Shown here piece after piece: positions 3,840 through 38,015 of a DNA stretch of 38,015 nucleotides; the stretch's first letter is position 1, and the number at the start of each line of letters is the position of its first letter. Origin of the DNA: Caldifarciminota bacterium (GTDB lineage Bacteria > Hydrothermota > UBA3073 > JACQXS01); the NCBI GenBank assembly GCA_023129235.1, contig JAGMCN010000034.1:1-38015 (forward strand). Direction: 5' to 3'. Under the pieces are notes generated by a model that saw only the letters and a list, made by a program, of their open reading frames with translations, had not been told where the DNA came from and made no database searches. Position numbers and translations under genes: made by a program.

Positions 3840-5615
3840 ATGGATTTTTGGGAAAGAATAAAGGAAAGAGTGCTTGTTGCTGATGGAGCAATGGGAACTC
3901 TTCTTTATGAGCGCGGAGTGCCAAAAGGTCATTGCTATGACGAGCTTAATCTGTCCAATCCAACACTCATTCAAGAAATACATAAAGCTTATCTTGATGC
4001 TGGTGCTGAGCTAATTGAAACTAATACCTTCGGGGCAAACGAGTATATTCTCTCAAAATACTATGACCTTGGTGAAAAAAGCAAAGAAATTAACTATAGA
4101 GGTGCGAAAATTGCAAGAGAAGTAGCGAGGGATAAATTTGTAGCTGGAACTGTAGGGCCGGTTACAAGACCACTTGAATCAAGAGAAAAGTTACAGTCAT
4201 CAGAAATAAAGGAGATTTTTACATCACAGATTCTTGCTCTTCTGGAAGGAGGAGTAGACCTCATTATCCTTGAGACTATGGCTTCTATTGATGAGCTTCT
4301 ATTGGGATTTCGGGCTGCAAGAGCAGTATGCGACCTACCTATAATATGCCAACTTTCATTTGCTGAAGATGGTCGCACAATTTTAGGTGTTGACCCTGTA
4401 GAGGCATCTATTAGACTTGACAAAGAAAAAGTCCAAATAATAGGTGCTAATTGCGGAATAGGACCCCAGAGCGTATATGAATCCATTCAGCGTATGGGGC
4501 ATATAACTCAGGCAACACTTTCAGCACAACCAAATGCAGGTAGAGCAAGTTGGACTGGAGAAAAGTTTGTGTATCCTGCTACACCAGAGTATTTTGCAGA
4601 CTACGCCAAACGTTATGTGAGTAGCGGAGTCTCGATAATAGGTGGTTGCTGTGGAACTACTCCTGCATACATATCTGCTATTAAAAACGCTGTTGAATCC
4701 TTAACTCCGAAGCCCAGAAAAATTGTGCAAATAAATGTAGGAGCAGGGTTGAAGCCCACTCCTACCGGTAGGGACGAGGTTACCTCGCCCCTACAACAAA
4801 TGCTTAAGGAGAAATTTGTTCTCAGTCTTGAACTTGAGCCACCAAAATCCACAAATGTTGAAAAAGAGTTACTCACAGCTGAAAGTTTTAAAAACTTAGG
4901 TGGGGATTGCGTTAATATATCAGATAATCCTATGGCGAGACTCCGGATGAGTCCTATTCCCCTTGCCCATATAATTCAGGATAAAGTGGATATTGAGGTA
5001 ATCCTACATTTTACCTGTAGAGACAGAAATCTCCTCGCAATTCAGTCTGACCTGATTGGAATGCATGCTCTGGGAATTCAGAACATACTTGCCCTAACAG
5101 GTGACCCACCATCAGTCGGGGATTATCCATTTGCAACAGCTGTTTTCGAAATTAACTCTGAAGGGCTTGTAGAAATCATAAACTCTCTTAACAATGGAAC
5201 AGACTGGCTCGGCAATCCAATTCCTAATCCAACTTCTTTTTTTGTGGGTGTTGCGAGTGGTTTAGACGGGCTATCCCGCACAAAGAAAAAAATAGCCAAA
5301 GGAGCAAGATTTATTCAAACTCAACCAATATTTGATATAGAGAATTTCCGAAAGTTTGTCTCGGAGTTCCCTGATATTCCTGTAATCGCAGGAATTCTTG
5401 TGCTTGGGAGCTTGCGACAGGCTGAGTTTATTCAAAATGAAGTCCCCGGAATTACTATCCCAGACCCAATAATGGAGAGAATGAAAAAAGGAGCTACTGA
5501 TGAGGGAGCAATTATTGCCAGAGAATTGCTTGGAGAGTTACGAAAGTTCTCCGATGGTGCGTGTATAATGATTCCAGGTGGAAAATATGAACTTATTAAG
5601 GATGTGCTAAAATGA
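3840..5615 (+). CDS. Bifunctional homocysteine S-methyltransferase / methylenetetrahydrofolate reductase (YitJ/BhmT-MTHFR type)
   Basis: 'DGAMGTLLYERG', 'GANCGIGP', 'IGGCCGTTP' Zn-Cys motifs of the HMT domain, followed by an MTHFR domain 'LSLELEPPKSTNVEKEL...ILALTGDPP...FIQTQPIFD'. Confidence 0.93.
   Translation: MDFWERIKERVLVADGAMGTLLYERGVPKGHCYDELNLSNPTLIQEIHKAYLDAGAELIETNTFGANEYILSKYYDLGEKSKEINYRGAKIAREVARDKFVAGTVGPVTRPLESREKLQSSEIKEIFTSQILALLEGGVDLIILETMASIDELLLGFRAARAVCDLPIICQLSFAEDGRTILGVDPVEASIRLDKEKVQIIGANCGIGPQSVYESIQRMGHITQATLSAQPNAGRASWTGEKFVYPATPEYFADYAKRYVSSGVSIIGGCCGTTPAYISAIKNAVESLTPKPRKIVQINVGAGLKPTPTGRDEVTSPLQQMLKEKFVLSLELEPPKSTNVEKELLTAESFKNLGGDCVNISDNPMARLRMSPIPLAHIIQDKVDIEVILHFTCRDRNLLAIQSDLIGMHALGIQNILALTGDPPSVGDYPFATAVFEINSEGLVEIINSLNNGTDWLGNPIPNPTSFFVGVASGLDGLSRTKKKIAKGARFIQTQPIFDIENFRKFVSEFPDIPVIAGILVLGSLRQAEFIQNEVPGITIPDPIMERMKKGATDEGAIIARELLGELRKFSDGACIMIPGGKYELIKDVLK
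4737..4765. repeat. Family A palindrome 1 (GTAGGAGCAGGGTTGAAGCCCACTCCTAC), in HMT/MTHFR CDS
   Basis: GTAGGAG/CTCCTAC terminal inverted repeat with GGG/CCC inner pairing. Confidence 0.9.
4768..4794. repeat. Family A palindrome 2 (GTAGGGACGAGGTTACCTCGCCCCTAC), in HMT/MTHFR CDS
   Basis: GTAGGG-A-CGAGGT-T-ACCTCG-C-CCCTAC, 12 bp of pairing with one symmetric mismatch. Confidence 0.92.
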
Positions 5616-12992: not shown

Positions 12993-14543
12993 TTACCTCA
13001 CCAATACCAGCTTTCTTGTCACGCTTTTCTCATCGCATTGTGTAGTACAATAATAAATTCCTCTTGGCAGAGACTTGCCTGATTCATCGGTGCCGTCCCA
13101 ACTTACCTTATGGATTCCAGATTCCTGAATCTCATCTACCAGCACTTTTACTAATCTACCAGAAAGGTTATAAATCCTCATACTCACAGCAGTTGGTTTT
13201 CCTATTTCATATTCAATGAGAGTCTTGGCTATGAATGGATTAGGATAATTACCCAATATCTCAATTCCCTCAATTCTCTCATTTTCCTCAATCCCTGTAT
13301 CTTCGCAGTAAATAGCATAAAGCTTATTCCCGGAGCAATCTCCAAAGTAAACTGTCTTATTAGGTCCTATTGCTGGAGAATTCCAAACCTCATTTTCTGT
13401 CCTGTAGAAACATACAATATCTCCATCAGATTGCTTTAATATAAAAAGTCCACCAGTCCCTGGAACCCAATTGTCACTTGCTACTCCAATATAAACGTAA
13501 CCATTTGAGCTCAATGCTGGAGAGGAAGCAATATTCCAATAAGCATCACCTCCGGGAAGATATTTTGCCCATTTCCTTGTGCTATCAGGATTAACGGCAT
13601 GCACTGTATCTGCTACTGCACCTATATATATCGTTCCATCATAACTTATTGCTGGCGAAGATATAAGAGCTGAGCGATCTCTATTATTAGCTGGCCTTGA
13701 GGACAATAAGTATGTCCATTTTAAAGTGCTATCAGGATTTAGAGCATAAAGAGTTTGGTCTTCAAGTGTTGAGAAATATATTGTTCCATCATCACCTATT
13801 GCTGGAGAACTTCTAATTTTACCCCCAGCTTGATAGGTCCACTTGCACTTTCCATAAGTAATTGAATCCTCTATAGCATAAAGCTTGTTATCATCTGCTC
13901 CTATATATATTGTCCCGTCAGAAGCTATAGCTGGTGAGGACTGAATAACACTACCTATTGAAAATGTCCACCGTAGATTACCATTAGACTTCATAGCATA
14001 AAGCAAACCATCATAAGTTCCCACATATATTATACCAGCGTTTATTACAGGCGAAGAGGAACTACCATGAAACCCGAATCCTGAGGATGGAATAGTCCAT
14101 CTTACTTTACCACTATCTGAATATAGACAATAAAACTTACCATCCCAAGCCGATGTTCCTTCCCCTATATAAATATATTTATCATATATTAGTGGAGAAG
14201 AATTAAACTCTAAACAGGCAGGAGCAGAATATTCCCATTTCTTTGCAACAGAATTGAGCCCAAGATCCTTAATTGCATAAACTAAACCAACACCCGCATT
14301 CCCTCTATTGCCTATATATATCAGTGTATCATTTCCCTCCACTCTCACTGACGGAGAAGAATAAAAATAGTTTGCCCCACTAAATTTCCATTTCTCATTA
14401 CAACACTCGGGACCTGGATAAGGACTTTGACCTGTGCGCCTTGTGTCATACTTAAACATAGGCCAATAATCTATGTCTGCACTTAAAACCCCTGCCTTTA
14501 AGACACCAAGCAAAAGCACCAAACTTATCAACTTTTTATTCAT
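12993..14543 (-). CDS. PQQ-like beta-propeller repeat protein with C-terminal sorting domain
   Basis: Repeated 'SSPAIASDGTIYIGADDNKLYAI', 'SSPAIGDDGTIYFSTLEDQTLYALNPD'; C-terminus 'NYPNPF...MRIYNLSGRLVKVLVDE...WDGTDESGKSLPRGIYYC'. Confidence 0.87.
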   Translation of the reverse strand: MNKKLISLVLLLGVLKAGVLSADIDYWPMFKYDTRRTGQSPYPGPECCNEKWKFSGANYFYSSPSVRVEGNDTLIYIGNRGNAGVGLVYAIKDLGLNSVAKKWEYSAPACLEFNSSPLIYDKYIYIGEGTSAWDGKFYCLYSDSGKVRWTIPSSGFGFHGSSSSPVINAGIIYVGTYDGLLYAMKSNGNLRWTFSIGSVIQSSPAIASDGTIYIGADDNKLYAIEDSITYGKCKWTYQAGGKIRSSPAIGDDGTIYFSTLEDQTLYALNPDSTLKWTYLLSSRPANNRDRSALISSPAISYDGTIYIGAVADTVHAVNPDSTRKWAKYLPGGDAYWNIASSPALSSNGYVYIGVASDNWVPGTGGLFILKQSDGDIVCFYRTENEVWNSPAIGPNKTVYFGDCSGNKLYAIYCEDTGIEENERIEGIEILGNYPNPFIAKTLIEYEIGKPTAVSMRIYNLSGRLVKVLVDEIQESGIHKVSWDGTDESGKSLPRGIYYCTTQCDEKSVTRKLVLVR

Positions 14544-14617: not shown

Positions 14618-14673
14618 GGGTAGGGTTGAAGCCCTCGCTTCAACTATATGAGAGCGAGGGCTCTCATCTACCC
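14618..14673. repeat. Family A composite element with three-way-junction potential
   Basis: GGGTAG/CTACCC outer stem; GTTGAAGC-CCTC-GCTTCAAC and TGAGAGC-GAGG-GCTCTCA inner hairpins. Confidence 0.92.
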
Positions 14674-14765
14674 ATATGGAATGGAAGAACTGTTCCACAG
14701 GAGGACATTTTTGCCGAAAAGTAACATTTTTCAAAAAAAAGTTTGACATCTTGTATTTTCAGGAT

Positions 14766-14787
14766 ACATCTTAAAGACTTAAGATGT
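14766..14787. promoter_or_regulatory. Perfect 9-bp inverted repeat over the SLBB gene start (operator or mRNA hairpin candidate)
   Basis: ACATCTTAA-AGAC-TTAAGATGT; ATG 14784-14786 lies in the right arm; TTGACA at 14743-14748 upstream. Confidence 0.6.
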
Positions 14788-15224
14788 GTGATAAAAAACT
14801 AAAGATTAACAAAACAATGATTTGTAAGGCAACCTTCATTTTATCACTCCTATTATTTTCGGATTCATTGTTTGGTGAGGTATGTGTTCATGTATGGGGT
14901 GAAGTCAAAAAGCCAGGTGAATATTACGTACCTGCTGGAATAAATGTCCTTGAGCTCATTTCCAAAGCCGGTGGTCCCACAGAGTATGCGAATATTAAGA
15001 ACATCACACTTACTCACAGAGAGGTAACTTCTGATAGGATAGTCAAGGTTAATTTAAGCAATTATTTGAAGAAAAAGGAGTTCAAGAAACCCATTCCTGT
15101 GGTAGAGAATGGGGATGTTGTCAGGGTTCCTCGCAATAAATGGTATAGATGGCGAACTCTGATAAAAATTGCTGCCGATGTAGCAATTATTGCTAATGCC
15201 TATTACTGGTTCTCAAGAGATTAA
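14784..15224 (+). CDS. Small SLBB-domain polysaccharide export protein (start could be 14784 or ATG 14818)
   Basis: 'VHVWGEVKKPGEYYVPAGINVLELISKAGGPTEYANIKNITLTHR...NGDVVRVPRN' SLBB; C-terminal hydrophobic segment; immediately upstream of Wzc-like gene. Confidence 0.8.
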   Translation: MCDKKLKINKTMICKATFILSLLLFSDSLFGEVCVHVWGEVKKPGEYYVPAGINVLELISKAGGPTEYANIKNITLTHREVTSDRIVKVNLSNYLKKKEFKKPIPVVENGDVVRVPRNKWYRWRTLIKIAADVAIIANAYYWFSRD

Positions 15225-34447: not shown

Positions 34448-34527
34448 CCACGAAAACACTGGTAGGGACGTTCAATTGAACGCCCCTACCATAATATAAT
34501 TTCTTTTGTGTACCTTAGTGTTTTGGG
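34448..34527. repeat. Nested repeat: family A palindrome (34461-34490) inside an outer CCACGAAAACACT...AGTGTTTTGGG inverted repeat
   Basis: Inner GGTAGGG-A-CGTTCAATTGAACG-C-CCCTACC; outer AAAACACT/AGTGTTTT. Confidence 0.85.
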
Positions 34528-35986: not shown

Positions 35987-38015
35987 ATGAAAACTTATGC
36001 TTATGGTTTCCCGCGATTAGGACAAAATCGGGAGTATAAAAAAAGTATAGAGAGCTTCTGGAAAAGAGAAACATCAAAGCAGGAGCTTGTTTCAAAAATC
36101 TTCCAATTAGAAAGAGAAATTATTGATAAATATGAGAACAGTGTGGATAAGTTCCCTGTAGGCGAGATGACTTTTTATGATAATATGCTGGACACAGCTT
36201 TGATGCTTGGACTTTATCCTTACAAAACTCTTGAAGAATATTATGACTTATGTTGGGGCAAAAGTGCTCTGGAGTTAAGTAAATGGTTCAATACAAACTA
36301 CCACTATCTTATACCTGAATTTCCTCAAGATTTCTCTCCCTCTCCACAAGATTCTGCGAATAAATTTAAACTATTATGGAATAAGCCGAAAGAAGCATTT
36401 GAACGATATAAAATTGGAGCGAAGCGGAAATCCCGTTCCGGCGGGAAGGGAATCCCCTATATGATAGGACCATTTACTTTTTTGAAATTAAGCAAGGGAC
36501 TTAAATCTAAAGATTTTGAAGACTCCCTGCTCGCATTAGGAGCAATATATAAAGAAATAATTAAAGATTTCCCGGAAGTCCACATTGACGAACCTGCTTT
36601 AGTTATGGAAATTTCACAGGTAGAACTCTCTTTATTTAAGCAAGTATATAATGAAATAGGGCATTCTTCTAAAATAAATCTCTTTACTTATTATGACTCT
36701 GTGGATTATTTAGAAATTCTATATAGTCTGCCCCTACAAGCTATTGGACTGGATTTTGTTCAGGGCAAAGCCAACTTAGATGAGATAAGAAAATACGGTT
36801 TCCCAGAAGATAAGGTTTTAATTGCCGGGATAGTTAATGGCAGAAATGTTTTGAGAGGCAATATCGAATACTATCTTGCTTTACTAAAAGAACTATCCGG
36901 TTATGCCAAAAATATTGAAATTTCAAATGCAGGACCTCTTTACCATTTACCCATATCAGTGAAGCAGGAAAAGTTTCCTCCAGAACTCTCGGGAAAGTTA
37001 GCTTTTGCCAATGAGAAACTGGAGGAGTTAAAAACTATCGGGAGAATGGTTGAAGAACGAGAACCCACACTCAAGAATTTAGAGGATTTTAAGCATAAAA
37101 TACCTCAGGATATTAAGAGATTAAAAGAAAAGGATTTTAAAAGAGCAGTCACTTTTCAGGAACGGAGAAAGATACAAAATAAGGTTTTAGATTTACCTCT
37201 TTTCCCTACAACAACTATAGGTAGCTTTCCTCAAACTCCCGATATTCGGAAAAAAAGAGCAGATTTCCGCACAGGCAAGATATCCAAGGAGGAGTATAAA
37301 TCCTTTATTAAGACAAAAATTGAGGAGTTAATTAAGCTTCAGGAAGATATAGGATTAGATGTTCTGGTGCATGGAGAATTTGAGCGAAGTGATATGATTG
37401 AGTTCTTCGCTGAAAAATTAGAAGGTATTACCACTACCAAGAATGGATGGATTATTTCTTATGGGACTCGGTGCTACCGTCCGCCTATTATTTATGACGA
37501 CGTGAAAAGGAAAGCACCTTTGACCCTGGAAGAGATAGCTTTTGCTCAGTCAATTACCAAAAAGCCTGTAAAAGCCATACTTACAGGACCTGTAACAATT
37601 GTTTCCTGGAGTTTTGTGCGGGATGATATACCCTTACCTTTAGTTGCTTATCAAATTAGTTTAGCCCTGCAGGAAGAAGTTAAGGACTTAGAAAAAGCAG
37701 GAATAAAAATCATTCAGATTGACGAGCCCGCTTTTAGGGAAAAAACACCCATTAAAAAAAGAGATTGGGAAACGTATTTTGATTGGGCTATAAAATCTTT
37801 CAGACTTGCCAGTTCTTTATCCTCGCCAGAGACTCAAATACATACTCATATGTGTTATTCAGAATTTGGCGAAATACTTGAGTATATTGAGAAAATGGAC
37901 TTTGACTGCATTACAATTGAGGCAAGTCGTAGCAGGGGAGATACTTTACAGTATTTCAAGGATATAAACTTTGAGCGGCAAATTGGTCCAGGAGTCTGGG
38001 ATGTTCATTCACCTG
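35987..38015 (+). CDS. metE: 5-methyltetrahydropteroyltriglutamate-homocysteine methyltransferase (cobalamin-independent methionine synthase), 3' end truncated by window
   Basis: My translation from ATG 35987: 'MKTYAYGFPRLGQNREYKKSIESFWKRETSKQEL...FPTTTIGSFPQTPDIRKKRADF...GLDVLVHGEFERSDMIEFFAEKLEG...IHTHMCYSEF...'; absent from the ORF track because no stop falls inside the window. Confidence 0.93.
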   Translation, partial: MKTYAYGFPRLGQNREYKKSIESFWKRETSKQELVSKIFQLEREIIDKYENSVDKFPVGEMTFYDNMLDTALMLGLYPYKTLEEYYDLCWGKSALELSKWFNTNYHYLIPEFPQDFSPSPQDSANKFKLLWNKPKEAFERYKIGAKRKSRSGGKGIPYMIGPFTFLKLSKGLKSKDFEDSLLALGAIYKEIIKDFPEVHIDEPALVMEISQVELSLFKQVYNEIGHSSKINLFTYYDSVDYLEILYSLPLQAIGLDFVQGKANLDEIRKYGFPEDKVLIAGIVNGRNVLRGNIEYYLALLKELSGYAKNIEISNAGPLYHLPISVKQEKFPPELSGKLAFANEKLEELKTIGRMVEEREPTLKNLEDFKHKIPQDIKRLKEKDFKRAVTFQERRKIQNKVLDLPLFPTTTIGSFPQTPDIRKKRADFRTGKISKEEYKSFIKTKIEELIKLQEDIGLDVLVHGEFERSDMIEFFAEKLEGITTTKNGWIISYGTRCYRPPIIYDDVKRKAPLTLEEIAFAQSITKKPVKAILTGPVTIVSWSFVRDDIPLPLVAYQISLALQEEVKDLEKAGIKIIQIDEPAFREKTPIKKRDWETYFDWAIKSFRLASSLSSPETQIHTHMCYSEFGEILEYIEKMDFDCITIEASRSRGDTLQYFKDINFERQIGPGVWDVHSP
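36342..36366 (+). repeat. Family B repeat copy 4 (CTCCACAAGATTCTGCGAATAAATT), inside metE
   Basis: Reverse complement resembles the 81-110 region (TTTAAA....TTCGCAGAATCYTGTGGA); encodes SPQDSANK. Confidence 0.7.
36426..36457. repeat. Imperfect palindrome in metE CDS
   Basis: GGAAATCCCGTTCC-GGC-GGGAAGGGAATCCCC; arms ATCCCGTTCC vs ATTCCCTTCC match 8/10. Confidence 0.7.

Follow-up and report, generated by a model that had tools for sequence, protein, structure and literature searches.

Is a 56-bp inverted repeat upstream of exopolysaccharide (EPS) genes a switch of the operon, or a mobile sequence that only happens to stand there? This question is raised by positions 14618-14673 of a stretch of 38,015 nucleotides (the window) of contig JAGMCN010000034.1 from a Caldifarciminota bacterium. 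The original prediction described the element as a three-way junction of two hairpins with complementary (kissing) tetraloops and a competing 10-bp pairing, and proposed either a structured mobile palindrome, related to repetitive extragenic palindromes (REPs), or a bistable RNA or cruciform controlling the EPS operon. We hold with high confidence that the element is a doublet of the REPIN type (REP doublet forming hairpins), in which two different GTAG-tagged REP hairpins stand head to head, and that it is non-autonomous and presumably mobilised by a REP-associated tyrosine transposase (RAYT).

Anatomy and fold of the 56-bp element

Re-reading of the sequence confirmed all sequences and coordinates of the original prediction, including the complementarity of the two tetraloops, CCTC and GAGG, and that of the two 10-mers. 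The outer ends are formed by GGGTAG (14618-14623) and CTACCC (14668-14673), and the 8-bp left hairpin, GTTGAAGC-CCTC-GCTTCAAC, occupies 14625-14644 as described. The right hairpin, TGAGAGC-GAGG-GCTCTCA at 14649-14666, had been given 7 bp and a TATA separator; it is extended by the pair A14648-T14667 to 8 bp and the spacer is TAT, and both hairpins consist of an 8-bp stem and a 4-nt loop. The parts of the element are as follows.

14618-14644, plus strand: REP unit G, with GGGTAG tag, extra G (14624), 8-bp stem GTTGAAGC/GCTTCAAC and loop CCTC; read directly, with copies in the own genome and the same order and stem covariation
14630-14639, plus strand: 10-mer AGCCCTCGCT, reverse complement of 14653-14662
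14633-14636, plus strand: REP-G loop CCTC, complementary to the REP-A loop (GAGG on the plus strand, 14656-14659); the complementarity is not conserved in the family
14645-14647: TAT spacer between the REP units; TAG in the 98% identical orthologue of the relative G002, and 2-5 nt in other doublets
14648-14673, minus strand: REP unit A, in opposite orientation, with GGGTAG tag, 8-bp stem ATGAGAGC/GCTCTCAT and loop CCTC; read directly

The extra G of the left unit is found in the window and G002 copies, and single units identical to REP-A are present at G000:C180 and G007:C2.

As RNA the element folds at -34.0 kcal/mol, compared with -16.1 +/- 3.1 for shuffled sequences (z = -5.8; none of 200 as good). 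Of the two alternative folds, both are computed to be stable in the window copy, with energies close to each other as RNA (-32.5 and -30.0 kcal/mol) and as DNA (-19.1 and -18.8 kcal/mol); the two-hairpin fold of the DNA, at -18.8 versus -19.1 kcal/mol, is essentially the best DNA fold. The apparent closing stem GGGTAG/CTACCC arises because the two tags stand inverted and face each other, and the complementary loops and the 10-bp alternative pairing arise because both units carry the core AGC-CCTC-GCT, arranged head to head. The bistability is a by-product of the doublet design.

Dispersed copies in related genomes

Copies were counted by genome searches. The element is matched at six places in its own genome, at 26 and 16 in the same-genus relatives G001 and G002, at 11 in the same-family G003, and at 10, 7 and 2 in the same-order G007, G004 and G008, respectively. 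With a degenerate pattern of the single unit, 77 exact matches were obtained in seven genomes of the same order (own included) and none with the reversed control; no match to this pattern was detected in other families of the class. A looser pattern, GTAG-N9-CCTC, was dropped as it gave no excess over the reversed control. In a scan of GTDB genomes, the matches listed include records of Candidatus Stahlbacteria/WOR-3 with the unit itself, as well as many Chloroflexota (Dehalococcoidia) and a few others with a sister version; the same-order relatives with copies are probably WOR-3/Stahlbacteria. G003 is probably JACQXS01 (Candidatus Stahlbacteria), as two REPs stand at identical positions on contig JACQXS010000096 (L174) and on G003:C75, and the host of the window probably belongs to that lineage too.

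Copies are mostly intergenic (30 of 36 inspected) and adjoin differing open reading frames (ORFs). Presence and absence were also observed between relatives, one single REP of the own genome being missing at the orthologous site of G001 and another at that of G002, with junctions that are not base-clean; for a doublet, the comparison yielded no precise empty site.

Compensatory changes in the stems

Doublets of the form GGGTAG-stem-loop-stem, followed after 2-5 nt by the inverse, were extracted and aligned, and pairs were counted on 37 distinct doublets. The inverted doublet recurs as a unit with conserved spacing. Two stem types, GTTGAAGC and ATGAGAGC, are kept in the window's group, while in the sister group of Chloroflexota one stem is GTTGGAGC and the opposite one varies (CCTAGAGC, CCCGGAGC, CCTTGAGC and others), with loops mostly of the type AYCN. 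The left stem is 99.7% and the right stem 98.3% paired, and in each of them four pairs are changed on both sides. The structure as a whole has 107 cells with double changes versus 43 +/- 7 in shuffles (none of 500 as high). The tag helix is 98% paired and free of double changes, as a recognition sequence should be.

Both units thus show the features of GTAG REPs: a GTAG foot 5' of a stem-loop, dispersed and mainly intergenic copies, and compensatory changes in the stems. The mobile, REP-like alternative of the original prediction is borne out by these features, by the head-to-head doublets and by the presence of similarly built REPs in RAYT genes.

RAYT genes with internal REPs

Y1_Tnp genes were found in 27 of 40 relatives, and the RAYT genes of several relatives are flanked by or contain GTAG hairpins. 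One RAYT subfamily is marked by the motifs MxxNLPKFND...HLHLLLWWD...MQGIKG.TARRII...WQ.GFYDFNI...YIHNNP, and each of the five members that were scanned passed the NCBIfam NF047646 threshold (REP-associated tyrosine transposase). Eight members have sequence at the site in question: two from G003, one from G001 and five from Chloroflexota, with frameshifts in two of the eight. In every one of these, a REP of the design GGGTAG-8bp-4nt, or a pair of them, lies inside the ORF between TARRII and WQ.GFYDF, its position and frame being constant. Judged by the order of motifs, this site is predicted to follow alphaC and to precede the beta4 strand WQ.GFYDF.

RAYT ORFs with internal REP(s): L285, L251, L258, L286, L287, L288, L289 and L290

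In the broken RAYT gene of G003:C33, the insert is of the window's own REP-G/REP-A doublet type. Except for AATT in G001, the internal REPs have loops similar to those of the REPs dispersed in their own group, of type ATCN/ACCN for Chloroflexota and CCTT/CTCT for G003. The G003:C33 gene, together with the eight members, points to a candidate cognate RAYT of the kind known for REPINs and REPtrons. These observations support, short of proof, the mobilisation of the window's family by the NF047646-type subfamily.

Four points weigh against the reading as a mobile, RAYT-dependent doublet. No Y1_Tnp/RAYT gene was found in the own assembly, which is 62% complete. The subfamily was detected in 8 of 23 genomes (E <= 1e-15), and not in all of those bearing the repeat. 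The intact RAYT gene of G001, from the same genus, carries a REP, GCAGGGGC-AATT, which is unlike the dispersed copies in both stem and loop, so that it is mainly the broken G003 gene and the shared design that speak for a cognate pair. Lastly, the empty sites are not base-perfect.

A RAYT recognises GTAG and the loop (PMC8266576). For the window's element, hairpins would form when it is single-stranded DNA, for instance on the lagging-strand template; a RAYT, a member of the HuH/Y1 family, would recognise them by GTAG foot, stem and loop, and would cut and rejoin the element. The element would in this way have been dispersed among intergenic sites, and it is now inherited at its present position; its place upstream of EPS genes is presumably incidental.

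A further proposal, which we consider tentative and rather doubtful, concerns a RAYT lineage common to WOR-3/Stahlbacteria and Chloroflexota: its transposase genes would retain their own REP or doublet in frame at one fixed site, after alphaC and before beta4, close to the surface that recognises REPs. The peptide encoded by the REP, or the hairpin in the gene or mRNA, might then take part in recognition or self-control, and the window element would be an offspring of the gene-borne doublet.

Two other arrangements were observed among the RAYT genes. A second group, with the motif SIRLKDYDYSQ.GAYF (L074, 1426-1953, minus strand; L138, 5226-5831, minus strand), seems to have palindromes of the type GTAGGGGC within its ORFs, where they are translated into peptides such as VGADPCVCP...GEHIGSPL and VGAGLAPAL...GATARVAPT. 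L254 and L255 show the classical REPtron layout, with GTAG-GCACGAT hairpins on both sides of the RAYT gene; in L254 a doublet stands on each side.

Location upstream of the EPS genes and alternative explanations

The following features surround the element.

12993-14543, minus strand: secreted beta-propeller protein with a FlgD-like/Por-type C-terminal domain (Pfam), divergent upstream neighbour
14743-14748, plus strand: TTGACA hexamer within the 16-mer AAAAAAAGTTTGACAT, which also stands upstream of the G001 orthologue (comparison by eye)
14784-15224, plus strand: SLBB-domain polysaccharide export protein (Pfam SLBB/SLBB_2), first gene of the EPS cluster, downstream neighbour

The distance from the element to the SLBB gene is 110 nt. 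In G002 the surrounding 3 kb is 98% identical and the element is kept. The G001 orthologue of the SLBB gene (73% identity) has no such element in the 324 nt available upstream, and it keeps the TTGACA-containing 16-mer near the gene start. By sequence comparison, TTGACA is probably the -35 element of the EPS promoter, downstream of the doublet; a simple consensus promoter scan did not list this site. A promoter at this block would leave the doublet on its upstream side, outside any leader RNA. As a separate observation, the minus-strand beta-propeller gene contains direct repeats at 13481-14204, which are probably propeller blades.

The best surviving alternative, which we nevertheless regard as improbable, is that a REP of mobile origin has been domesticated at this site as an mRNA stabiliser, a gyrase/IHF-type binding site or an insulator between the divergent genes. 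Host roles such as mRNA stabiliser or gyrase/IHF-type site are known for REPs elsewhere. In Thauera sp. MZ1T, EPS gene clusters are flanked by GTAG-1 repeats (PMC3733652), and the retention of the element in the G002 orthologue could be taken in the same sense. However, G002 is so closely related that selection need not be invoked for the retention, the element is absent from the G001 orthologue, and its site between divergent genes is not at a 3' end.

Less likely still is a switch that controls the EPS operon in cis, as RNA or DNA, and in which the two-hairpin form with kissing loops would alternate with the one long arm and act on transcription or translation. Such a switch would be in agreement with the two stable folds of similar energy in the window copy and with the short distance to the SLBB gene. 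The loops were examined by permutation. Exact complementarity of left and right loops was found in 10 of 21 doublets of the window's group, slightly above the shuffle mean of 6.3 (p = 0.024), but in the Chloroflexota sister group in 4 of 21 with a shuffle mean of 5.7 (p = 0.88). The loop-loop helix is the worst paired of all helices, at 81% with both groups pooled, a value due in part to their different loop types. Loop complementarity, for which the original prediction asked for compensatory changes across copies, is not kept by covariation and is not a conserved feature of the family. Doublets spread as units, so the linkage of loops can be by descent, and copying of whole doublets can explain the mild excess observed in the window's group. 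In the long-arm fold, 79% of the pairs are formed across the doublets, the ubiquitous part being the shared core, and a partial long arm is favoured in most copies by a mean gap of 3.6 kcal/mol (RNA) or 2.7 kcal/mol (DNA).

The genomic site also argues against control of the EPS operon. An association with the same downstream gene is not conserved, since the G001 orthologue lacks the element and other copies stand beside other, unrelated genes. The element probably lies upstream of the promoter, the TTGACA block shared with G001 being on its 3' side. Searched against Rfam at the gathering score, the element was unmatched, the only match being a tRNA at 1-54 of the window. An EPS leader or riboswitch was rejected on these grounds, and the regulatory half of the original prediction is not upheld. 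Nothing points to a special RNA switch; the element is an ordinary small mobile element.

A chance juxtaposition of two unrelated hairpins, for which only the general abundance of palindromes speaks, can practically be dismissed in view of the doublets that recur with conserved spacing in many genomes and of the fold energy (z = -5.8).

Other palindromes in the window

The original prediction also noted that the element shares the 13-mer AGGGTTGAAGCCC with an element inside a gene for homocysteine methyltransferase and MTHFR domains. The sharing is real; a common origin was rejected, as the palindrome pair at 4741-4797, with the repeated half GTAGGGGCGAGGT/ACCTCGCCCCTAC, belongs to another REP family, of which separate dispersed copies exist, and the 13-mer is altered in the orthologue of G002. 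The palindromes at 4741-4797 stand in frame in the linker between the two domains of this single fused protein and are kept in the G002 orthologue.

At 34460-34491 there is a near-perfect palindrome, TGGTAGGGACGTTCAATTGAACGCCCCTACCA, with GTAG at both ends, resembling a REP with a double foot. A 40-nt inverted repeat (85%) containing TTCGCAGAATCC is formed by 81-120 and 36333-36372; a stretch similar to the TTCGCAGAATCC repeat comes after a GTAGGGGCGATT hairpin beside a REP in L005, and this is perhaps another repeat family.

Comparison with known systems

The family is a new one of a known kind, REPIN or GTAG-REP heterodimer, the comparison with the 24 GTAG families of Di Nocera et al. 2013 (PMC3733652) being by text; that text names neither WOR-3/Stahlbacteria nor candidate phyla. 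The papers searched contained nothing on palindromic repeats in Stahlbacteria, on this transposase type together with candidate phyla, or on kissing-loop REPs. The REPIN/RAYT system is hereby extended to an uncultured and poorly studied lineage, and one dispersed family of REP doublets is tied to one RAYT subfamily across two phyla. The striking kissing-loop three-way junction can be explained without a regulatory function, which calls for caution in reading the folds of inverted repeats.

Like REPINs (Bertels and Rainey 2011, PMC3116915), the window's doublet consists of two inverted REPs regarded as one mobile unit, dispersed, mostly intergenic and RAYT-linked, which would fold as single-stranded DNA or mRNA. 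It differs in that its two units have different stems, so that the pairing of a long hairpin is limited to the core. The GTAG REP families (PMC3733652) share with it the GTAG foot, the stem of 6-9 bp, the short loop and the head-head dimers with a spacer of 1-5 bp; these dimers may be heterodimers with different stems, their units can form two folds or a single large stem-loop, and some copies are intragenic.

In-frame REPs in RAYT genes mark subclass 2.4 of TnpAREP/RAYT (Quentin et al. 2018, PMC6006769), where, as here, the REP lies in the coding sequence between the HuH and Tyr motifs. In that subclass, however, the variable insertion is located between beta3 and alphaC, while in all eight members of the present subfamily it would follow alphaC and precede WQ.GFYDF (beta4); short inserts at this latter site are found in subclasses 2.2 and 2.6 (PMC6006769). 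The REPs of the E. coli BIME (bacterial interspersed mosaic element, a mosaic of y and z REPs) form imperfect palindromes of greater length that contain a bulge (PMC8266576), and tandem mosaics of them are frequent, but the BIME agrees with the window's doublet in the pairing of two non-identical GTAG REPs in opposite orientation.
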